DNA of 50,796 bases from an uncultured Clostridia bacterium (GTDB lineage Bacteria; Bacillota; Clostridia; Christensenellales; Borkfalkiaceae). How positions within the stretch are numbered: position 1 is the stretch's first letter; each line of letters begins with the position of its first letter. The stretch is from contig CALVUC010000009.1 of assembly GCA_944363395.1 (NCBI GenBank), positions 1-50,796 on the forward strand, in the 5' to 3' direction. The position numbers were made by a program, and so were the translations under genes. The notes under the pieces were generated by a model that saw only the letters and a list, made by a program, of their open reading frames with translations, had not been told where the DNA came from and searched no databases. Shown here one piece after another: positions 19,813-31,357 of the stretch.

Positions 19813-22293
19813 TCAGACCGTGCGAAACACGAATTCTCCGCCTTCCGCGTCCACGGCGACGGTGCTGCCCTCGCCCACTTTGCCCTGCAGGATCTCTTCG
19901 GACAAGCCGTCCTCGATGCGGCGGCGGACGACGCGCTTCAAGGGGCGCGCGCCGAATTCCTCGCTGTAACCTTCCTCGACGAGCTTTTCCAGCGCCGCGG
20001 GGCGCACGATGAGCGAGACGCCGCGCTGCGCGAGCCGCTTTGCGAGCGAGGCGACGATGCGCTCGCAGATGAGCGCCGCGTCCCCGCGCGAGAGCTTGTG
20101 GAAGATGATGATGTCGTCGAGACGGTTGAGAAACTCCGGCTTGAACTGCCGCTTCAGCGCAGCCTCGATGCGCTCCTTCATCTCCTCGTACGCGCCCTCC
20201 CGCTTTTCCTGCGAGAAGCCGAGGGGGGCGGCGGAACGCACTTCGTGCGCGCCGACGTTGCTCGTTAAAATAATGACGGTGTTCTTGAAGGAGACCACCC
20301 GCCCGCGGCTGTCCGTGAGCCGCCCGTCGTCGAGGATCTGCAGCAGCAGGTGAAAGACGTCGGGATGGGCTTTTTCCACCTCGTCGAAGAGGACGACGGA
20401 ATAGGGCTGGCGGCGGATGCGCTCGGTGAGCTGTCCGCCCGCTTCGTCATAGCCGACGTACCCCGGGGGCGCGCCGATGAGTTTGGAAACGGACGCCTTC
20501 TCCATATATTCGGACATATCCAGGCGCACGAGCATCTTTTCGTCGCCGAACATACTCTCGGCGAGCGCCTTGGAGAGGTCGGTCTTGCCAACCCCCGTGG
20601 GACCGACAAAGATGAAGGAACCGATGGGCCGCCCCGCGTCTTTGAGCCCCGCGCGCGCACGGCGGATGGCTTTTGCGACGGCGGCGACCGCCTCATCCTG
20701 CCCCACGATGCGGCGGTGCAGCTCCTCTTCGAGGTGCAAAAGCCGCTCGCTCTCCGCCTCCGTGAGCTTTGTGACGGGTACGCCCGTCCAGCTGCTGACG
20801 ATGGCGGCGACCTCCTCGGCGCCGATGGCGAGATGCGCCGCGTTGCGCGCGCTCTGCCACTCGCTGCGCGCGCGTTCCATCTGCTGCGTCTGCGCGGCGA
20901 TCTCCCTGTCCAGCCGCGCCGCGCGCGCGGCGTCCTGCCACTTGCCCGCGTTCTCGCGCTCGGCTTTGAGGCGGGCGATCCTGCGCTCCTCCTCGCGGAA
21001 TTCCTCCGGTCCCGTGTAGGCGTCCAGCCGCGCCTTGCTCGCCGCTTCATCGATGAGATCGATCGCCTTATCGGGAAGGAAGCGGTCGGTGATATAGCGG
21101 TCGGACAGGCGCACCGCCGCCTCGATCGCCTCGTCCGTGATGACGACGTTGTGGTGCGCTTCGTACTTATCCTTGATGCCGCGCAGGATGGCGACGGTGT
21201 CCTCGATCCCCGGCTCCGCAACGGTGACGGGCGTGAAGCGGCGCTCGAGCGCGGCGTCCTTTTCGATATATTTACGGTATTCGTCCAGCGTCGTCGCGCC
21301 GACCGTCTGCAACTCGCCGCGCGCGAGCATGGGCTTCAGGATGTTGGAAGCGTCCATGCTCCCGTCCGAAGTGCCGCCCGCGCCGACGATCATGTGGATC
21401 TCGTCGATGAACAGGATGATGTCGCGGTCGTTCCTGACTTCGTCGATGACGCGCTTCAGCCGCTCCTCGAAGTCGCCGCGGTAGCGCGTCCCCGCAAGAA
21501 GCCCCGAAAGATCGAGGGAGAACACCGTCTTGCCGCGCAGCATCTCCGGCACCTTGCCCGCCACGATCGCCTGCGCGAGCCCTTCGACGACGGCGCTCTT
21601 GCCGACGCCCGGCTCGCCGACGAGGACGGGATTGTTCTTGGTACGGCGGGAGAGGATCTGGATGACCTTTTCGATCTCCTTCTCCCTGCCGATGACGGGA
21701 TCGACCTTCCCTTCACGCGCGCGGCGGGTGAGGTCGGCGCCGTACGCCATCAGCCCGTTCTCCTCCTCTTCATCGGCGGGGGCGTCCTCGAACAGCATCT
21801 TGCGCCGTTCCCTGCGTTCCTCGCGCGGCGGCTCCTCCGTCGGCTCCTCCTTTGCAAAAGGCGAGAAGATGAACCGTTCGACGGAAGCGTTGAGCGCCTC
21901 GATATCCACGTCGATGCGCCTGAGGATCAGAAGCCCGATGCCGTCTTTGTCCGTGAGGATGGCGAGCAGCAGATGCTCCGTCCCCACGACGGTATCCCGC
22001 CCGTCGCAGGCGTTGACGGCATATTCCTCCGCCATCTCGAAGGCGCGCTTGGTGCGCGGCGTAAATCCCTGCACGGGGTAGTCGTGGTCGACATTCTCGC
22101 GGAAGATGCTGCGGAAGCGTTCGATGCTCGCGCCCGCGGCGATCAACAGGCGGCTCGCGGTGCTGTCCGTCACGCACATCATGGTGAGCAGCAGATGCTC
22201 CGTCCCGATGTAACTCGTCTGGTAGTGCTGCGCCGCCTCCTTGGAGAGCTTGATCGTCTGCTGTAAGTGTTCGGAATAATGCGAAATATCCAA
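19813..22293 (-). CDS. clpC: AAA+ protease ATPase ClpC
   Basis: Class I Clp unfoldase that feeds ClpP and degrades arginine-phosphorylated and misfolded proteins. The start is TTG at 22293 ([11 protein letters not shown]), 7 nt after AAGGAG; an open frame further upstream lies inside mcsB. The 826 residues hold two N-terminal Clp repeats (about 1-140), Walker [10 protein letters not shown] and B FIDEIHMI in the first AAA+ ring, a UVR/middle coiled region, and GPTGVGKTD with LFDEVEKAH in the second. It is the last gene of the mcsA-mcsB-clpC operon. Confidence 0.97.
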
Positions 22294-22304
22294 AGACTGA
22301 CTCC

Positions 22305-23375
22305 TTATATGAGTTCGAGGCGCATCCCGCGGATGACCTTGCTGACATTTTCGGCGCGGATGACGTCCTCGCCCGCATCCGGCGCGCCCAGCGAACGGAC
22401 GCCCGCGGGACGCATGGCGACGGAAAGTTCGTCGAGCTGCCACATCTTCGTTTCCGTCCAGTCGGAAGGTCGCGTCTCGCACGGTTCGTCGTCGCAGAAA
22501 TATCCGAGCGCAAGCCCCAGCTTGAGATCGGACACATAGCGCATGAACTCGCCCTCCCCCAGCGTGCAGCAATGGGTCAGGATGCCGTATGCGCGGGCGG
22601 CTCTGTCCTTTAAGGGGATGCCGCCCTCCGCGCGCATCCGCGCGCGTTCCAGAAGCTCCATCTCGACGATGGTGGAGATCGCCTGCTCCACGAGGGAGAG
22701 GATCTCCTCCTCCGGCATCCCGAGCGTGCGCTCGTTGCTCACCTGAAAGAGGTCGCCTTCCGCGCCGCTGCCCTCGCCCATCGTCCCGCGGACGGTCAGC
22801 CCCTTGCCCGTAAGGGCGGGAAGGACGCGCTTTGCGAGCACCCCGCGCCGCGAGAGCGCGGGCAGAAAGAGCATGACGGAAGCCCGCATCCCCGTCCCGA
22901 CGTTGGTGGGACAGGCGGTGAGATAACCGAACGTCTCGTCATAGGCGAAGGGGATGCTTTCGCCGATGGCGTCGTCCAGCCCCATAATGCGCTCGTACGC
23001 CTTGGCGAGGTCAAACCCCTGCATGAAATACTGCTCGCGGACGTGATCCTCCTCGTTGAGCATGATGGAGATGATCTTATCGTGCGAAACGAGTGCGGAG
23101 GCGATCGGACGGTGCCGCAGAAGATCGCGCGAGATGAGATTTTGCTCGACGAGGAGCGCCGCACGTTCCTCCGAAAGCCCGCGCATCTTGTACAGCGTAA
23201 ATTCTTCCACTTTGGAGAGCGCCTCCGTGACGAGCCGCTCCATCTCAAGCGCCTGTTCCACGGCGTGCGCGTCCCGCATCAGCCGTCCCGGGAAGGGAAA
23301 ATCGGCAAAGTTGCGCGCAAGACGGATGCGCGTGGAGGACGCGACGCATTCATAGCTTTCCGAGATCGCGCTCAT
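22305..23375 (-). CDS. mcsB: Protein arginine kinase McsB
   Basis: Phosphagen-kinase homologue that phosphorylates arginines on misfolded proteins, marking them for ClpC-ClpP. The 356 residues show SSTRIRLARNF near 13, LVSHDKIISIMLNEEDHVR near 95-115, the catalytic Cys region ACPTNVGTGMRASV near 155 and TVRGTMGEGS near 198. It overlaps mcsA by ATGA and lies 11 nt from clpC. In Bacillus it also inactivates CtsR, which is not encoded here. Confidence 0.96.
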   Translation of the reverse strand: MSAISESYECVASSTRIRLARNFADFPFPGRLMRDAHAVEQALEMERLVTEALSKVEEFTLYKMRGLSEERAALLVEQNLISRDLLRHRPIASALVSHDKIISIMLNEEDHVREQYFMQGFDLAKAYERIMGLDDAIGESIPFAYDETFGYLTACPTNVGTGMRASVMLFLPALSRRGVLAKRVLPALTGKGLTVRGTMGEGSGAEGDLFQVSNERTLGMPEEEILSLVEQAISTIVEMELLERARMRAEGGIPLKDRAARAYGILTHCCTLGEGEFMRYVSDLKLGLALGYFCDDEPCETRPSDWTETKMWQLDELSVAMRPAGVRSLGAPDAGEDVIRAENVSKVIRGMRLELI

Positions 23376-23857
23376 CTCTCCTCCCCGGCGGAAGCCATCG
23401 CCTTGAGCAGGCGGCGGAGTTCCCCCGCGCGCGCATAGTCGTGCTCGCGCATCGCCTGTTCCATCTCCTCGCGGAGCGCGGCGCGCCGCGCCGTATCCGC
23501 CATGAGGCGGTCGTAACGTTCCTCCGCGCCCAGACGCACGGGGCGCTTTCCGCGGTGGAGGATGCTGCCGTGCAGGCTGCGCACCGTCTCGGTGAGAGGC
23601 GCGCGGAACGCCTCGTAACAGCCCGCGCAGCCCAAAAGTCCCGTGCGGCGGAACTCCTTATAGCTCGTGCCGCAGACGGGACAGACCGCATCCACCCCGT
23701 CCGCACCGCCGAGCACGGACAGGAAAAAACTGCTCTCCTTTTCGGGATAGAGTTTCCGATAACACGCGGGACAGAGCAGGACGGTCACTTCCTTCCCGCC
23801 CGCACGGCGCGTATAGGCTTGCGCGGGAGCCTTCCCGCAATTGGTACAAAGCAGCAT
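23372..23857 (-). CDS. mcsA: McsA, zinc-binding activator of McsB
   Basis: Activator and scaffold of the McsB arginine kinase. The 161 residues have four CxxC pairs forming two treble-clef-like zinc sites (CTNCGK at 4, CPACYRK at 28, CPVCGTS near 60, CAGCYEA near 76) and a C-terminal UVR-type coiled coil (EEMEQAMREHDYARAGEL). The ATG at 23857 follows AAGGAGG. It lies 25 nt after the DUF1653 gene. Confidence 0.94.
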   Translation of the reverse strand: MLLCTNCGKAPAQAYTRRAGGKEVTVLLCPACYRKLYPEKESSFFLSVLGGADGVDAVCPVCGTSYKEFRRTGLLGCAGCYEAFRAPLTETVRSLHGSILHRGKRPVRLGAEERYDRLMADTARRAALREEMEQAMREHDYARAGELRRLLKAMASAGEER

Positions 23858-23881: not shown

Positions 23882-24112
23882 CTATTGTGCGATCTCCTCA
23901 AAGCGGTACTTCTGCCCCGCATCGGGATATTTTTCGCGGTCCACTTCGGACAGGAACATGGCGAGCGGACGGATATACCGTTCCCGTCCGCCGTAGAGCG
24001 CGCGGTAGACGACGTACGTCTCCCCCGTCTCGCTGTGCGCCGCAGTCCCCTCCACATAATATAACTTTCCCTTGAAATGGCGGTACACGCCGTGAACGGT
24101 GAGCGTTCTCAT
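23882..24112 (-). CDS. DUF1653 small protein
   Basis: The 76-residue protein matches DUF1653 in the pattern [34 protein letters not shown] and [11 protein letters not shown]. The domain is a small beta-rich fold of unknown function. The start is the ATG at 24112, which overlaps the upstream stop (ATGA); a longer reading to 24142 is less likely. It is placed between a membrane protein and mcsA. Confidence 0.87.
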
Positions 24113-25191
24113 ACCAGCTCCGGATGCATTTGCGCGATCCATTCGTATGCGCCCTCGATGTCGGGCAAGTGGTAGGTGCCGAAGGGACAGACGACGGCAA
24201 GGTAACGCTTTTCGCCCGCCGTCTCATAGCCGACGCTGCAGACGACTTCCCACTTCAAAAAGAGTTTGTCGGCAACGGCGTCGCCGCTCTCCCGCCAGTA
24301 CAGACCCGCCTCGCCCAGCCCGAGCATCCCCTTGGCGCGGACGAACCCCGCAATGCTGCGCGCGAGAAAGACGCCGCCCAGCACGCAGACGATGGCGCCC
24401 ACGAGGGTCGCCTCCTGCCAGAACACGGCGACGAGCGCGCCCGCTGCCATGAGCACGGCGCTGAGCACGATATAGATGAGATTGCGGCGGCGCTTTTTTT
24501 CGTCGGGCAGGAGCAGCTTTGCCGTGAGCGGGAAGCGCGTGTCCGCCTGCTTTGCGCCGCGGGGCGGCCGTTCGCCCTGCAGTCTGAGCCCGCGTTCCTC
24601 CAGAATGCGGTAGAGGCGCTCCTTGCCGTCCGTCTCGATGAACGCTTTGGGCGCGCCGCCGCGCTTTTGGACGTAGTGCGCGGGGACTTCGAGCACGACG
24701 CTCCACTTCCCCTTTTCGCGCGGGGCTTTGCGCGTGCAGACAGAATGGCAAATGACTTCGCGGTACGGGATGCGGATGCGCGCCTTCTTGTACTGTTCCG
24801 ACTCCGAGCGGATAAACAGCTCGCTCCCGCCGAACTGCGCGACCGTGCCGTCGCCCACATAAAAACAGTCCTCGCCGCAAAGCCGCTCCAGATAGTCGAG
24901 TTCCGCTTCCTGCACGCGCTGCGTGAGCACGCCCGTCCCGAACGCCGCCAGCGCAAGGACGACGGCGCCCCCCGCAAAAGCGCCCGTCAGGATATAGAGC
25001 AGCGTGTCGCGGGCGGGATCCCGCTCGCCCGTCTGCGTCAGGATGACAACGACGAGCACGCCGATGAGACAGGCGATGGCGAGAATGGCAAGCACGAACA
25101 TCGCGCCGCCCGTGAATTTGCGGAGCGCGCGCAGCGAGCGCGCCTTCTTTTTGCGTGCCGCATCCTCCTGCGGCAGAGCGATCTCCTTCAT
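24109..25191 (-). CDS. Four-helix membrane protein with PH-like soluble segments, unknown function
   Basis: The 360 residues have four predicted membrane helices in two pairs (about 25-50, 62-85, 240-260, 266-290). Between the pairs lies a soluble beta-rich segment ([20 protein letters not shown]...), and a similar one follows the second pair ([25 protein letters not shown]). Both resemble bacterial PH/YcxB-like folds, so an internal duplication is possible. The start is the ATG at 25191 after GGAGGG. It is co-transcribed with the XRE regulator and mcsA-mcsB-clpC, which suggests a role in envelope stress; this is inference. Confidence 0.8.
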
Positions 25192-25238: not shown

Positions 25239-25868
25239 TCAGTCCCTGTGGAAGAGGCGCAGCCTCTTCCAGGGAAAATAAAAGATGAGCGATAAAATTT
25301 GCAGCGGAACGCCGATGAGATAGATATAGTTGAGAGGCACCGCTTCAAGATCCAGCCCGCAGACGAGCGCCGTCAGATGGATGCAGGCGAGCACCGTCCA
25401 TACGAGCACGGTGATGGCGGCGATACGCACCCACGGATAGTGCCAGACGCAGGAAAAGACGAGCACGACGATGGCGGAAGCCGGCACCGCGTACAAAAAC
25501 GCCAGCCACATCCCGTGGAAGTGTCCCAGCCCGATGCCGCCGAACACGAACGCGGCGACGGCGACCAGCCAGCACAATCCGACGGAGAGCAGCATGACGA
25601 TGATGCGGCGCAAGAGCCGCGTCCGCTTGGGCATGACTGGCGCGTCGTCGTGCTCGCGCACGAGATCGTCCACGCTGACGTTGAACAAGTCCGCGAGACG
25701 GATGAGGATGCGCACGTCGGGGATCCCGTTGCCCTGCTCCCACTTGGAGACCGACTTATCGGAGTAGTTGATCTTTTCGGCGAGCTCGAGCTGCGTCATA
25801 TTCGCCATGCGCCTGAGGCGCATGATGTTTTTTCCGATGGTAACGGCAAGAAGGTCCTGATCTTCCAT
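25239..25868 (-). CDS. XRE-family regulator with C-terminal membrane helices
   Basis: The 209 residues start with an XRE helix-turn-helix (about 12-68; MTQLELAEKINYSDKSVSKWE is the DNA-reading region, residues 23-43). A short basic linker and four predicted membrane helices (about 85-200) follow. A membrane-tethered transcription factor is therefore likely. The start is the ATG at 25868: there is no Shine-Dalgarno and the consensus promoter ends 6 nt before it. It heads the operon that carries mcsA, mcsB and clpC, in the place where Bacillus has ctsR. Confidence 0.9.
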   Translation of the reverse strand: MEDQDLLAVTIGKNIMRLRRMANMTQLELAEKINYSDKSVSKWEQGNGIPDVRILIRLADLFNVSVDDLVREHDDAPVMPKRTRLLRRIIVMLLSVGLCWLVAVAAFVFGGIGLGHFHGMWLAFLYAVPASAIVVLVFSCVWHYPWVRIAAITVLVWTVLACIHLTALVCGLDLEAVPLNYIYLIGVPLQILSLIFYFPWKRLRLFHRD

Positions 25869-25874
25869 GGCTGT

Positions 25875-25903
25875 ATTATACCCGATTTTTCGGGAGATGT
25901 CAA
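25875..25903 (-). promoter_or_regulatory. Consensus promoter of the XRE-mcsAB-clpC operon, predicted leaderless
   Basis: TTGACA (25903-25898), 17 bp, TATAAT (25880-25875): full consensus. Six bases (ACAGCC) separate the -10 from the ATG, so +1 should be the A of the start codon. No CtsR heptad repeat was recognised at the -35/-10 region. Confidence 0.88.
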
Positions 25904-25918
25904 TCGCAATCCATGATT

Positions 25919-25995
25919 CTACTGTGAGTAGAGCGTGAATTTCGCACTCTACTGCCAAAGAAAGTGGGGATAGAGTGCGTTTTTCAAAGAGTAGG
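25919..25995. promoter_or_regulatory. Cluster of TAGAG-type repeats between divergent promoters
   Basis: Repeats in a 77-bp gap: palindrome CTACT-gtg-AGTAG (25919-25931), GTAGAGCGTG following it, CGCACTCTACT (inverted), TAGAGTGCG (direct, near 25971-25979) and AGAGTAG (near 25989). Their position upstream of both the XRE operon and the RNA promoter suggests operators, possibly for the XRE protein. Confidence 0.5.
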
Positions 25996-26024
25996 TTGCA
26001 TTTTGCGCGCCGCGCGCATATAAT
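25996..26024 (+). promoter_or_regulatory. Promoter of the intergenic structured RNA
   Basis: TTGCAT 25996-26001, 17 bp, TATAAT 26019-26024. No open reading frame of any length with a ribosome site follows, only the structured RNA. Confidence 0.85.
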
Positions 26025-26030
26025 AAAAGA

Positions 26031-26194
26031 GCAACGGGGGAAACCGTTACGGGCGGCATCCGCCGCGATAAGGGGGCGGAAGGACCGAAGCGTCCTTCGC
26101 CGTATTTTGCCAAATACAGGTCAGATCCCAACTGAGCTGTAACTACTCTCCAATATTTTGCAAAAGCCTGCGGTCTCTGACCGCAGGCTTTTGC
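26031..26194 (+). ncRNA. Structured intergenic RNA, possibly raiA-like
   Basis: About 164 nt from the predicted start to the end of a terminator stem. Helices seen: AACGG/CCGTT (26033-26048), GGCGG/CCGCC (26052-26064), GGCG-AAGGAC/GTCCTT-CGCC (26075-26101), GTATTT/AAATAC (26102-26117) and CAGGTCAG/CTGAGCTG (26117-26139), plus possible closing of GCAA with TTGC. Unpaired stretches such as ATCCCAA and TAACTACTC look like conserved loops. The CCGTTACGGG and CTGAGCTGTAACTA segments resemble what I remember of the raiA RNA motif of Firmicutes; this is recall, not a search. It is not upstream of a plus-strand gene, so a riboswitch is unlikely. Confidence 0.7.
26160..26194. terminator. Convergent terminator of the structured RNA and the GH42 gene
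   Basis: A 16-bp perfect stem, GCAAAAGCCTGCGGTC, loop TCT, and its complement; A/T runs are inside the stem arms, so it can work in both directions. The GH42 stop is 19 nt away on the minus strand. Confidence 0.9.
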
Positions 26195-26212
26195 ATCGGG
26201 CACAGACGCCCG

Positions 26213-28150
26213 TCACTTTTTCAGAACGAGCACTTCGTAGGGCTTCAGGGCGACGGTCCCCGTGCAGGCTCTCTTCCCGAGGAGTTCGGTATACATCCCG
26301 TGCAGCGTGAGAATGCCCTCCTTGCCCTCCGTCTCGACGGCAATGATGCCGTTTTCCGCTCCCGAGCGCGCGACGAGCGCGACATTGTCCGAGGCGTCCG
26401 CGACCGCCTCCTTGCCGATGAGGCGCAGGAGCGCTTCGGGCGAGGGAACGCTGCCGAGCACGATGACGCGCCCCTTACCGACGCGGTTGCAGGTGACGGC
26501 GGGCAGTCCTTTGAACTCGCCGTTCGCATATACGGCGAGCGCCTCCGCCCCGCGCAGTTCGTACGCGGCGTAGCATACGGAAAGCCCGAATTCGCCGCCG
26601 TCCGCCCATTGCGCGCGGTATACGTCGTTGCCGACGGGCAGGTCGTAGAGTTCGTACACGCCCGCCAGCTCCTCCAAAAAGGAGTGCGGCGCCTCCTTGT
26701 ACTTGCTCGCACAGTCGGTCATGATGTCCGTCATGGGTCCGACGATCCAGGTACCGCCCTGCTCCACCCATGCGCGGACGCGCGCGGGCAGACCGTGCTC
26801 GTCCGCCGTGTAGAGGAAGGGCGAGATGAGGACGTCAAAGCCGTCGAGGGAGTGCGCCGTGTCGATGACGTCCACGTTGTGGCGGCGCAGCGGCGTGTGG
26901 AAGGCGTCGATGAGCGTCCTGCGATAGTCAAAGTTTTTGAGAAGGGGCGCGCTCTGCGTCTCGAGAACGGTCGTCGCGGAATAGTGCAGCGCGATCTTCG
27001 CCTCCACGCTGGAATTGACGAGGAACTCGCGGCAGCGTTCAAACTCTTTCGCCGCCTTTACGACCTCCTGCGTCACCCTGTACGCCCTGCCCGACGCGTT
27101 GTAGAGCGCGCCGTGTGCGATCTCATGTCCGTTGGGATGGGCGCGGAAGAGCCAGTACTCGACCATCTCGCCGCCCTTGGCAACGGGCAGCCAGGTATTG
27201 GCGTAGCAGGCGCCCTCGGGGCGGTAGCCGAACTCGGCAAAGGTGCTGCCGTTCCAGCCGACCTGCGTCTCCGTCACCCAGAAGGGCTTATCCTTGACGG
27301 TGCGCAGGAAGTCGTAGGCGAAAGCGGTACGGGGCAGCTCGGCGGCGGGCTCGTAGTGGTTGTACTGCACGACGTCCAGCTTCTCGTTCGTGTCATAATA
27401 GGGCAGAAGCCCCGTCGCCATCATGTCCGTTCCGACGGGCGCGTCCGAACAGCGGTGCAGAATGTCCGCCTGCTCGTTGACATAGGAGATGATGTTTTTG
27501 TTGTGGAAGCGTATCCACTCCGTCATCAGCGAGGGATGCTCCCATCTGCCGTGTACGGGCGGAACGATCTCCTCGAAGGACCTGTAGGTAAGCGACCAGC
27601 GCGCCATCCCCCACGCCTTGTTGAGCGCCCCGACCGTGCCGTACTTCTCCTTCAGATAGGCGTGAAAGCCCGCGCGGCAGTTGGGGCAATAACAGCCCTC
27701 GCCGTAGGGGAAGACCTCGTTATCGATCTGCCAGCCGATGACGGCGGAATGGCGCCCGAACGCCTCGCCGAGCTTTTGCGTGATGATGCGGTTTTTCTCG
27801 CGCATGACGGGCGAGGATTTGCAGGGATGGCAACGGGAAAAGATCTCTGTCTGCTCCTTGCTGCCGTAGACGATGCGCGTCTCGGGGTATTTGTCAAACA
27901 GCCACCTGGGCGGCGTGCAGCTCGGCGTACACATGATGACGTCGATCCCCGCCGCATACAGTTTGTCGACGACGTCCTTGAGCCAGCCGAGCGTAAAGAC
28001 GCCCTCCTCCGGCTCCATATCCGCCCATGCAAACTCGCCCACGCGCACACAGTTGACGCCCGCCCGCTGCATCCGCTCGATATCTTTGTCCACCTCCGAA
28101 GGTTCCCATACTTCGGGGTAGTACGCCGCTCCGACATAGATCTTCTTCAT
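26213..28150 (-). CDS. GH42 beta-galactosidase
   Basis: Glycoside hydrolase family 42 enzyme that removes terminal beta-galactose; probably acts on imported oligosaccharides. The 645 residues form an N-terminal TIM barrel (MKKIYVGAAYYPEVW onward), with acid/base Glu in WQIDNEVFPY near residue 143 and nucleophile Glu in WVTETQVGWNG near 294. A trimerisation domain with an amidotransferase-like fold and a C-terminal beta domain follow. A Cys cluster (CHPCKSS, CYCPNC) may bind zinc as in other members. There is no signal peptide. The ATG at 28150 follows AGAGG; upstream reading is not conserved. Confidence 0.95.
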   Translation of the reverse strand: MKKIYVGAAYYPEVWEPSEVDKDIERMQRAGVNCVRVGEFAWADMEPEEGVFTLGWLKDVVDKLYAAGIDVIMCTPSCTPPRWLFDKYPETRIVYGSKEQTEIFSRCHPCKSSPVMREKNRIITQKLGEAFGRHSAVIGWQIDNEVFPYGEGCYCPNCRAGFHAYLKEKYGTVGALNKAWGMARWSLTYRSFEEIVPPVHGRWEHPSLMTEWIRFHNKNIISYVNEQADILHRCSDAPVGTDMMATGLLPYYDTNEKLDVVQYNHYEPAAELPRTAFAYDFLRTVKDKPFWVTETQVGWNGSTFAEFGYRPEGACYANTWLPVAKGGEMVEYWLFRAHPNGHEIAHGALYNASGRAYRVTQEVVKAAKEFERCREFLVNSSVEAKIALHYSATTVLETQSAPLLKNFDYRRTLIDAFHTPLRRHNVDVIDTAHSLDGFDVLISPFLYTADEHGLPARVRAWVEQGGTWIVGPMTDIMTDCASKYKEAPHSFLEELAGVYELYDLPVGNDVYRAQWADGGEFGLSVCYAAYELRGAEALAVYANGEFKGLPAVTCNRVGKGRVIVLGSVPSPEALLRLIGKEAVADASDNVALVARSGAENGIIAVETEGKEGILTLHGMYTELLGKRACTGTVALKPYEVLVLKK

Positions 28151-31181: not shown

Positions 31182-31322
31182 GATTACCTCCGTAAAACTC
31201 CTTTCGGAGCCGCATTAAAAAACTTCCGCACCGCAGACAGGCACGGAAGTGGAAAATACAGATGTATTTCGTTCCTACCTCGACGGGATATTGAGCCTTG
31301 CGGCACCCGTTGTCTGCGGTAT
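31182..31322 (-). ncRNA. L10-type leader RNA with attenuator
   Basis: A 141-nt leader before rplJ. It contains the GCC..AAGGCTCAATATCCCGTCGAGGTAGG-type core (on the minus strand, near 31275-31305) of the L10 leader that binds the L10-L12 complex. A terminator stem (31222-31228 with 31244-31250, extended by wobble pairs; T-run at 31222-31217) stands near the end. CCGCAGACA at 31319-31311 is complementary to TGTCTGCGG at 31239-31231 inside the terminator, which makes an anti-terminator. Confidence 0.85.
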
Positions 31323-31328
31323 ATGACA

Positions 31329-31357
31329 ATTGTAGCACAGAGCGGAAAAACCGTCAA
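31329..31357 (-). promoter_or_regulatory. rplJ-rplL promoter
   Basis: TTGACG (31357-31352), 17 bp, TACAAT (31334-31329), located between the rplA stop and the L10 leader. Confidence 0.85.

Follow-up and report, generated by a model that had tools for sequence, protein, structure and literature searches.

A conserved structured RNA of Candidatus Gallimonas, encoded divergently from a gene for an XRE regulator, and its predicted pairing with the leaders of two DegV-family genes

Introduction

The window analysed here is the whole of contig CALVUC010000009.1, a stretch of 50,796 nucleotides (contig C9 of a genome of 1.6 Mb in 60 contigs). Between an XRE-clpC gene row and a GH42 gene it contains a region that an earlier note had described as an independent structured RNA. 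The locus raises the question whether such an RNA gene exists, to which family it belongs and on which genes it might act. The reading favoured here, at a probability of about 0.76, is that the region encodes a trans-acting small RNA that would block the translation of two DegV-family genes, DegV-A and DegV-B, and would be co-regulated with a third, DegV-C, by the XRE regulator encoded next to it. This reading was reached by sequence comparison.

Results

A structured RNA gene with a predicted promoter

The RNA promoter consists of a -35 box TTGCAT (26001 being its last position), a 17-nt spacer and a -10 box TATAAT, and its placement puts the predicted transcription start at about 26031. The -35 box is identical to TTGACA at three of six positions, and the promoter is absent from the consensus-scan list. 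The features of the gene are as follows.

25996 to 26024, plus strand: RNA promoter TTGCAT-17-TATAAT (-35 at 25996-26001, -10 at 26019-26024), from the sequence, with similar promoters at the equivalent place in relatives
26031 to 26195, plus strand: small RNA, predicted transcript in its long form, from promoter position, fold z of -6.5 and family matches
26035 to 26046, plus strand: 5' hairpin CGGGGGAAACCG of the long forms, with a G run capable of pairing with the linker
26052 to 26064, plus strand: variable hairpin GGCGGCATCCGCC
26075 to 26101, plus strand: variable hairpin GGCGGAAGGACCGAAGCGTCCTTCGCC
26116 to 26140, plus strand: core hairpin with loop AUCCCAA (consensus YCCCAR), from covariation
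26145 to 26159, plus strand: linker ACUCUCCAAUAUUUU, the predicted seed, complementary to the Shine-Dalgarno (SD) region of DegV-A and DegV-B
26159 to 26195, plus strand: 3' hairpin of 17 bp with a 3-nt loop, terminator-like, from covariation

The segment 26031-26230 folds at -89.4 kcal/mol, compared with -60.8 +/- 4.4 kcal/mol for 200 shuffled sequences (z = -6.5), none of which folded as well. The ORF listing contains no frame of 60 or more amino acids on the plus strand within the RNA, and the only listed ORF covering it is an 84-residue GTG frame on the opposite strand (25949-26203) that has no other support. The note's description of an independent structured RNA, with a promoter of its own and conserved unpaired stretches, is supported by the relatives and the covariation given below.

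Conservation and covariation of the RNA

A first model, R1, was built from an alignment of the window with five other sequences obtained from a DNA search of 101 genomes, 16 of which gave matches. R1 matched 37 of the 103 Candidatus Gallimonas genomes at E<=0.001, once per genome. The best 30 of the 37 matches were examined (L021-L050), and in all 30 the RNA and an XRE gene diverge from each other. The alignment A3 comprises 29 rows, the window (L027) and 28 of these 30 loci; L026 ends at a contig end. The conserved core is made up of a hairpin with the loop YCCCAR, the linker ACUCUCCAAUAUUUU and a GC-rich 3' hairpin. Invariant in A3 are CC.A in the loop and CTCTCCA in the linker, and the A preceding and the ATA following the latter are nearly so. 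The supposedly conserved loops of the earlier note, ATCCCAA (26125-26131) and TAACTACTC, which continues as TCCAATATTTT, do contain the conserved parts. The 5' part ranges across the genus from three hairpins down to almost nothing, the three 5' hairpins not being conserved.

All 14 counted pairs in A3 show two-sided changes, with 94.1% of cells paired, compared with at most 52.1% when the partner was slid by 1-3 columns; as the structure comes from this very alignment, the comparison is biased towards it. In the core hairpin, two-sided changes were found in all four inner pairs (90.5% of cells paired), and in the 3' hairpin in 10 of 10 counted pairs (95.5%). The outer stem below the core hairpin is weaker, with 79.4% of cells paired and two-sided changes in three of six pairs, and slid versions covary nearly as well. 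The covariation check that the note had asked of homologous intergenic regions thus gave a positive answer. At the place of the note's 3' terminator there is a 17-bp hairpin that covaries, but the U run lies within the stem in the window, and in several relatives it precedes the hairpin, with none after it, which makes the structure terminator-like rather than textbook.

The pattern TCCCARN{8,22}ACTCTCCAA occurs in 42 of 103 genomes of the genus and in 9 of 295 others of the family. Since its reversed control was found in 8 of 398 genomes, the pattern is near chance level outside the genus, and chance may account for some few of the 42 as well. The window's own core, searched as an exact pattern in genome and viral contigs, gave no match; it is unusual in its family. 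A broader model, R2, matched 80 of 103 genomes of the genus and 131 of 301 of the family at E<=0.01; these tallies were dropped as family counts because the low-scoring tail resembles GC hairpins in general.

XRE relatives were also collected: a genome-contig scan confirmed at least 427 of them, and the best 80 loci were inspected. A rule framed once the sequences had been seen, requiring a CCC-loop hairpin followed by CTCTCC, was satisfied on the RNA strand in 47 of these 80, on the reverse strand in one of 80 and in 36 of 1600 shuffles made block by block. The other 33 loci fail the rule, and several of them, for example L183, L185 and L189-L192, have a visible RNA variant. On these alignments the predicted RNA gene is a conserved structured one of a previously undescribed family, found in one genus.

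Relation to known RNA families

A scan of the whole window with the Rfam library at gathering score gave a single match, an ordinary ribosomal protein L10 leader (RF00557, 69.9 bits) at 31208-31337 on the minus strand, and none for the RNA. A permissive scan of 25900-26300 gave weak Thr_leader and sraL matches on the opposite strand, below their gathering scores and without raiA, and six relatives yielded six sub-threshold matches (VrrA, sR035, ar7, BSnc120 and twice PrrB_RsmZ), again none of them raiA. No LhrC family match appeared in any of these three whole-library scans. In the covariance search, then, no Rfam family reaches its gathering score for this RNA.

The earlier note had read the RNA as recalling the raiA motif. 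A raiA RNA typically, though not strictly, adjoins raiA; the neighbours here are the XRE-clpC row and GH42. The consulted part of PMC11706538 describes raiA (ModT) RNA, RF03072, as present in more than 2,500 species, with eight paired regions and two pseudoknots. The RNA of the window shares with it that it is a structured non-coding RNA of Bacillota; it differs in having no covariance match and in having been found in one genus, set against the number of species given in that part of the paper. In the own genome RF03072 gave no match, a search that by itself proves little because none of 14 control genomes was matched either. What speaks for a raiA-type RNA is only the sequence resemblance given in the note; against it stand the permissive scan, the weakly controlled own-genome search and the six relatives, all without a match, and we regard this identity as next to impossible.

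RsaE, SprD, RNAIII and FsrA are C-rich small RNAs of Bacillota that pair with SD regions. In the accessible part of PMC4132741, a UCCC motif pairing with SD sequences is given as a feature of small RNAs of this type. The UCCC-type motif and the SD complementarity liken the present RNA to them as far as they are described there; it differs in having no Rfam match and in a linker extended by AAUAUUUU. The same excerpt reports that LhrC of Listeria has CU-rich UCCC motifs both in a hairpin loop and in the single-stranded part that separates hairpins, that it blocks the translation of its targets, and that a two-component system induces it under cell envelope stress (PMC4132741). UCCC-type motifs likewise lie in the loop (YCCCAR) and linker (CUCUCC) here. 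As LhrC is portrayed in that excerpt, however, it has five copies, set against one R1 match per genome, is controlled by LisRK rather than probably by a one-component XRE regulator, and has other targets; nor does the present RNA match Rfam. Features of SD-blocking small RNAs found here are an own promoter (by sequence), the lack of a coding frame and a conserved segment complementary to SDs. The RNA is a new family within a known kind, and the pathway of its predicted targets is new as well.

The neighbouring gene row and the XRE control region

The row that starts on the opposite strand contains the following genes, as well as mcsB; the names mcsB and clpC are provisional ones given from the sequence.

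25239 to 25868, minus strand: XRE regulator, 209 aa, N-terminal HTH (PF01381, 6e-14) followed by hydrophobic segments
24109 to 25191, minus strand: protein of unassigned family, about 360 aa, with hydrophobic segments, following XRE
23882 to 24142, minus strand: DUF1653 protein of the same row (PF07866, 1.6e-23)
23372 to 23857, minus strand: mcsA-like gene (NF053706, 2e-17, 63.6 bits, below the cut-off of 210)
19813 to 22572, minus strand: clpC ORF as listed; the true start is probably further in

The protein at 24109-25191 follows XRE in 69 of the 80 best XRE loci and has no Pfam or NCBIfam match. As to the neighbours named in the note, the XRE-clpC row is present and conserved and GH42 is adjacent in the window, but GH42 is near in only 8 of the 80 best XRE loci and was rejected as a partner. 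In other Bacillota, CtsR heads the mcsA-mcsB-clpC row. CtsR (PF05848) was found in none of 103 genomes of the genus, in a search whose control matched in one of 14 genomes, Lactococcus lactis. Because CtsR was not found in the genus, XRE occupies its place at the head of the row, and it may replace CtsR in Gallimonas. Its hydrophobic segments suggest that XRE is probably membrane-anchored.

Between the two divergent genes lie the following elements.

25875 to 25903, minus strand: XRE promoter TTGACA-17-TATAAT, from a consensus scan, with equal layout in 29 XRE loci
25918 to 25932, no strand: palindrome TCTACTGTGAGTAGA beside the XRE promoter, a putative operator that XRE would bind
25944 to 25953, no strand: half-site-like GCACTCTACT, from the sequence, with similar sites in relatives
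25970 to 25978, no strand: half-site-like ATAGAGTGC, from the sequence, with similar sites in relatives
25988 to 25995, plus strand: box AGAGTAGG abutting the RNA -35

The XRE mRNA looks leaderless because its promoter ends about 6 nt before the ATG (window 25866-25880; 29 relatives alike). The operator-like repeats are located between the XRE promoter and the RNA promoter. Among the best 80 XRE loci, the box A[AG]?T[AG]GGTT tracks the RNA, which is present in 45 of 59 loci with the box and in 2 of 21 without it (Fisher p 9e-8). Two more distant XRE loci, L201 and L204, have a AGTAGGTTG box and promoter-like sequence upstream of XRE, and neither has an RNA core by the rule given above.

The palindrome TCTACTNNNAGTAGA occurs in 83 of 103 genomes of the genus, with a count per genome not above that of the reversed control. 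Its placement is not random, since 28 of the 30 loci examined lie at XRE (14) or at a DegV-C-like gene recognised by N-terminal resemblance (14), and two elsewhere. Upstream of the own DegV-C stands CTCTACCGTGAGTAGAG, which deviates from the palindrome pattern by one base, and its start is preceded by a box AATAGGGTG. In L236, L238, L243, L259 and L262 the operator-like site of DegV-C is situated between DegV-C and a divergent gene that, named from its sequence, resembles a sporulation sigma factor.

Complementarity of the linker to the DegV-A and DegV-B leaders

DegV genes were surveyed in 12 RNA-bearing genomes of the genus, which contain 74 of them (75 rows, one gene being split). A tree and leaders were obtained from 56, and the other 18 were scored separately. 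The complement of the linker lies at the SD of DegV-A in 12 of 12 genomes and at the SD of DegV-B in all 10 genomes where DegV-B was found; the leaders of the two genes are otherwise unlike. In the own genome they read gaaatattggagaaaaagagtATG (DegV-A, L343) and cacaaaatattggagcgatggttATG (DegV-B, L316). The motif AATATTN{0,1}GGAGA is exact in 10 of 12 DegV-A and 8 of 10 DegV-B leaders. In the leaders inspected the paired stretch includes the SD, which stands a few bases ahead of the ATG, and three standard-type DegV-A duplexes that were inspected have 13 to 16 contiguous pairs, the linker being extended by AAUAUUUU.

With the linker of the same genome, the 12 DegV-A leaders gave duplex energies of -15.4 to -24.0 and the 10 DegV-B leaders -13.5 to -23.7, each matched by at most one of 100 dinucleotide shuffles. 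The 34 other DegV genes gave -4.8 to -13.2; the one at -13.2, L307 (DegV-C of G004), also beats all 100 shuffles. The separately scored group consisted of the 18 genes and five badly started ones, of which 22 of 23 were scored, with a free start, at -5.7 to -15.8. The two ranges therefore touch, L269 of this group overlapping that of DegV-A and DegV-B, and none of the 22 has AATATT before its SD. For the window, the best of 37 ORFs reached -12.7, compared with -16.5 for the own DegV-A and -23.7 for DegV-B.

Across the 12 genomes, AATATTN{0,1}GGAGA has 49 matches, against four of the reversed pattern. They comprise 12 RNA genes, 10 DegV-A starts, 8 DegV-B starts and 19 others, six of which have an open frame that starts within 24 nt. 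A/T-rich sequence upstream of an SD is common in general, and AATATT-GGAGA might accordingly be a strong ribosome-binding context that the leaders share with the RNA by chance. We consider this quite improbable: only three of the 19 other matches stand at the usual spacing (L364, L383 and L386, one genome each), DegV groups C, D and E lack AATATT-GGAGA, and the leaders of the G115/G001 clade described below have ACAAAGAAT in its place, matching their own RNA.

Two further candidates were rejected. The target pattern TTGGAGAG-N3-8-ATG gave 93 matches against 21 reversed, and few of the 30 of 93 examined lie at gene starts; plsY as a target was seen in one leader (G013) among those examined at 10 of 11 loci.

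Linker and leader differ together in a divergent clade

A divergent clade has the linker CUCUCCAUUCUUUGU and the DegV-A leader ACAAAGAAUUGGAGA, which are again complementary. In G115 (XRE loci L189 and L263) the linker is CTCTCCATTCTTTGT. Its DegV-A, found in 400 kb sampled, shares 63% identity with that of the own genome and is preceded by the leader ACAAAGAATTGGAGAaaacgatcATG. The two form a duplex of 14 bp with one bulge at -17.3, an energy reached by 23 of 2000 mononucleotide shuffles. The G115 leader with the linkers of G000, G004, G058 and G006 gave -9.9 to -14.6, and the G115 linker with the leaders of those genomes -9.5 to -15.0. The single AAAGAAT.?GGAG in these 400 kb of G115 is the one at DegV-A. 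The related genome G001 (L188) has the linker CTCTCCAATCTTTGT and likewise the DegV-A leader ACAAAGAATTGGAGA, at -19.3 with its own RNA, compared with -9.9 to -14.4 for three others.

The R2 score of L188 is 29.0 bits and that of L189 (G115) 19.7, where the match is confined to linker and 3' hairpin; at the RNA-less locus L140 a hairpin that arose by chance scores 19.3. The RNA of the clade was assigned mainly by position, with the box, the promoter, CTCTCC and the 3' hairpin as additional marks and, for G115, its likeness to L188. L188, L189, L191 and L192 have the 3' hairpin in common and also the linker, apart from a single base in L188. The predicted change of seed and target is one evolutionary event, in one lineage and two genomes. 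For a small RNA of uncultured gut bacteria that is known from genomes alone, it is unusual to have as evidence a predicted contact in which both partners vary between lineages.

G006 lacks AAUAUU in both linker and leader, and its own duplex is at -14.2. Its leader gave -13.9, -18.5 and -18.6 with the linkers of other genomes and -10.7 with that of G115; G006 thus shows no specificity, as the linkers of other genomes pair about as well or better. In the RNA-less G018, DegV-A was not found in the 300 kb sampled.

An RNA with stable helices, in which the loop YCCCAR is about as conserved as the linker and has no target found, could also work chiefly as a scaffold or by way of a protein that binds the YCCCAR hairpin, in which case the linker's match to DegV would be secondary or a coincidence. 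Such a role is unlikely in our view, although the least improbable of the alternatives, because 18 of the 37 non-self matches to the linker complement lie at two DegV paralogs and the leader follows the changed linker in one clade.

DegV proteins as probable fatty-acid carriers and the proposed mechanism

Four DegV proteins of the own genome were scanned; all match the DegV family and also the FakB1 model, the latter below its cut-off. DegV-A matches the solved FakB1 structure 7sg3 (1.5e-27) and DegV-B 6alw (9.2e-25); the top structure matches of both carry only DegV or uncharacterised names. According to the part of PMC10146087 at hand, FakB proteins choose the fatty acids that are phosphorylated for lipid synthesis, with several per cell that differ in selectivity, and the predicted targets here are DegV/FakB-like proteins as in that FakAB system.

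A translational block is the most likely effect, because the predicted targets are FakB-like and the UCCC motif is known to pair with SD sequences, as the available portion of PMC4132741 has it. In the mechanism proposed, the linker would pair with the DegV-A and DegV-B mRNAs at the SD region, which would block ribosome binding and lower DegV-A and DegV-B. The XRE regulator, probably membrane-located, may read the state of the membrane, and would control the RNA, its own gene row and DegV-C through the shared operator-like site, by repression or by activation, either being possible. The net effect would be a switched set of fatty-acid carrier proteins, so that different fatty acids would enter the membrane. 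We would put at even odds the wider proposal that a membrane-embedded one-component regulator at the place of CtsR swaps FakB isoforms, acting on DegV-C through its promoter and turning DegV-A and DegV-B off through the RNA, which is made from the same control region, and so ties the ClpC protein-quality operon to the lipid composition of the membrane.

The comparative data give the contact and not its sign, and the pairing might instead protect the DegV mRNAs, or the mRNAs might titrate the RNA. An SD covered a few bases before the ATG is, in the passages of PMC4132741 consulted, the usual geometry of a translational block, and we rate an opposite sign as slightly less probable still than a protein or scaffold role. 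If the blocking mechanism is true, the choice of membrane fatty acids would be connected with the ClpC gene row and with a regulator that is probably membrane-bound. The RNA would then also be the first small RNA on FakB-type fatty-acid carriers, as far as the partly accessible literature searched shows: publications on FakB, DegV and fatty acid kinase, judged mainly from the starts of their abstracts (including PMC12235713 and PMC7392221), named no small RNA acting on FakB, and in the portion of PMC12235713 consulted fatty acid kinase is named only in the reference list.

Linker accessibility in long and short forms

In the window RNA, five bases of the linker have an unpaired probability of 0.11-0.27 owing to pairing with the 5' G run. 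In the long form, pairing is possible between this G run (26037-26041) and the CUCUC of the linker (26146-26151), and it could mask the seed. Short forms of the RNA are without the 5' G run and carry a 5' UCCC.
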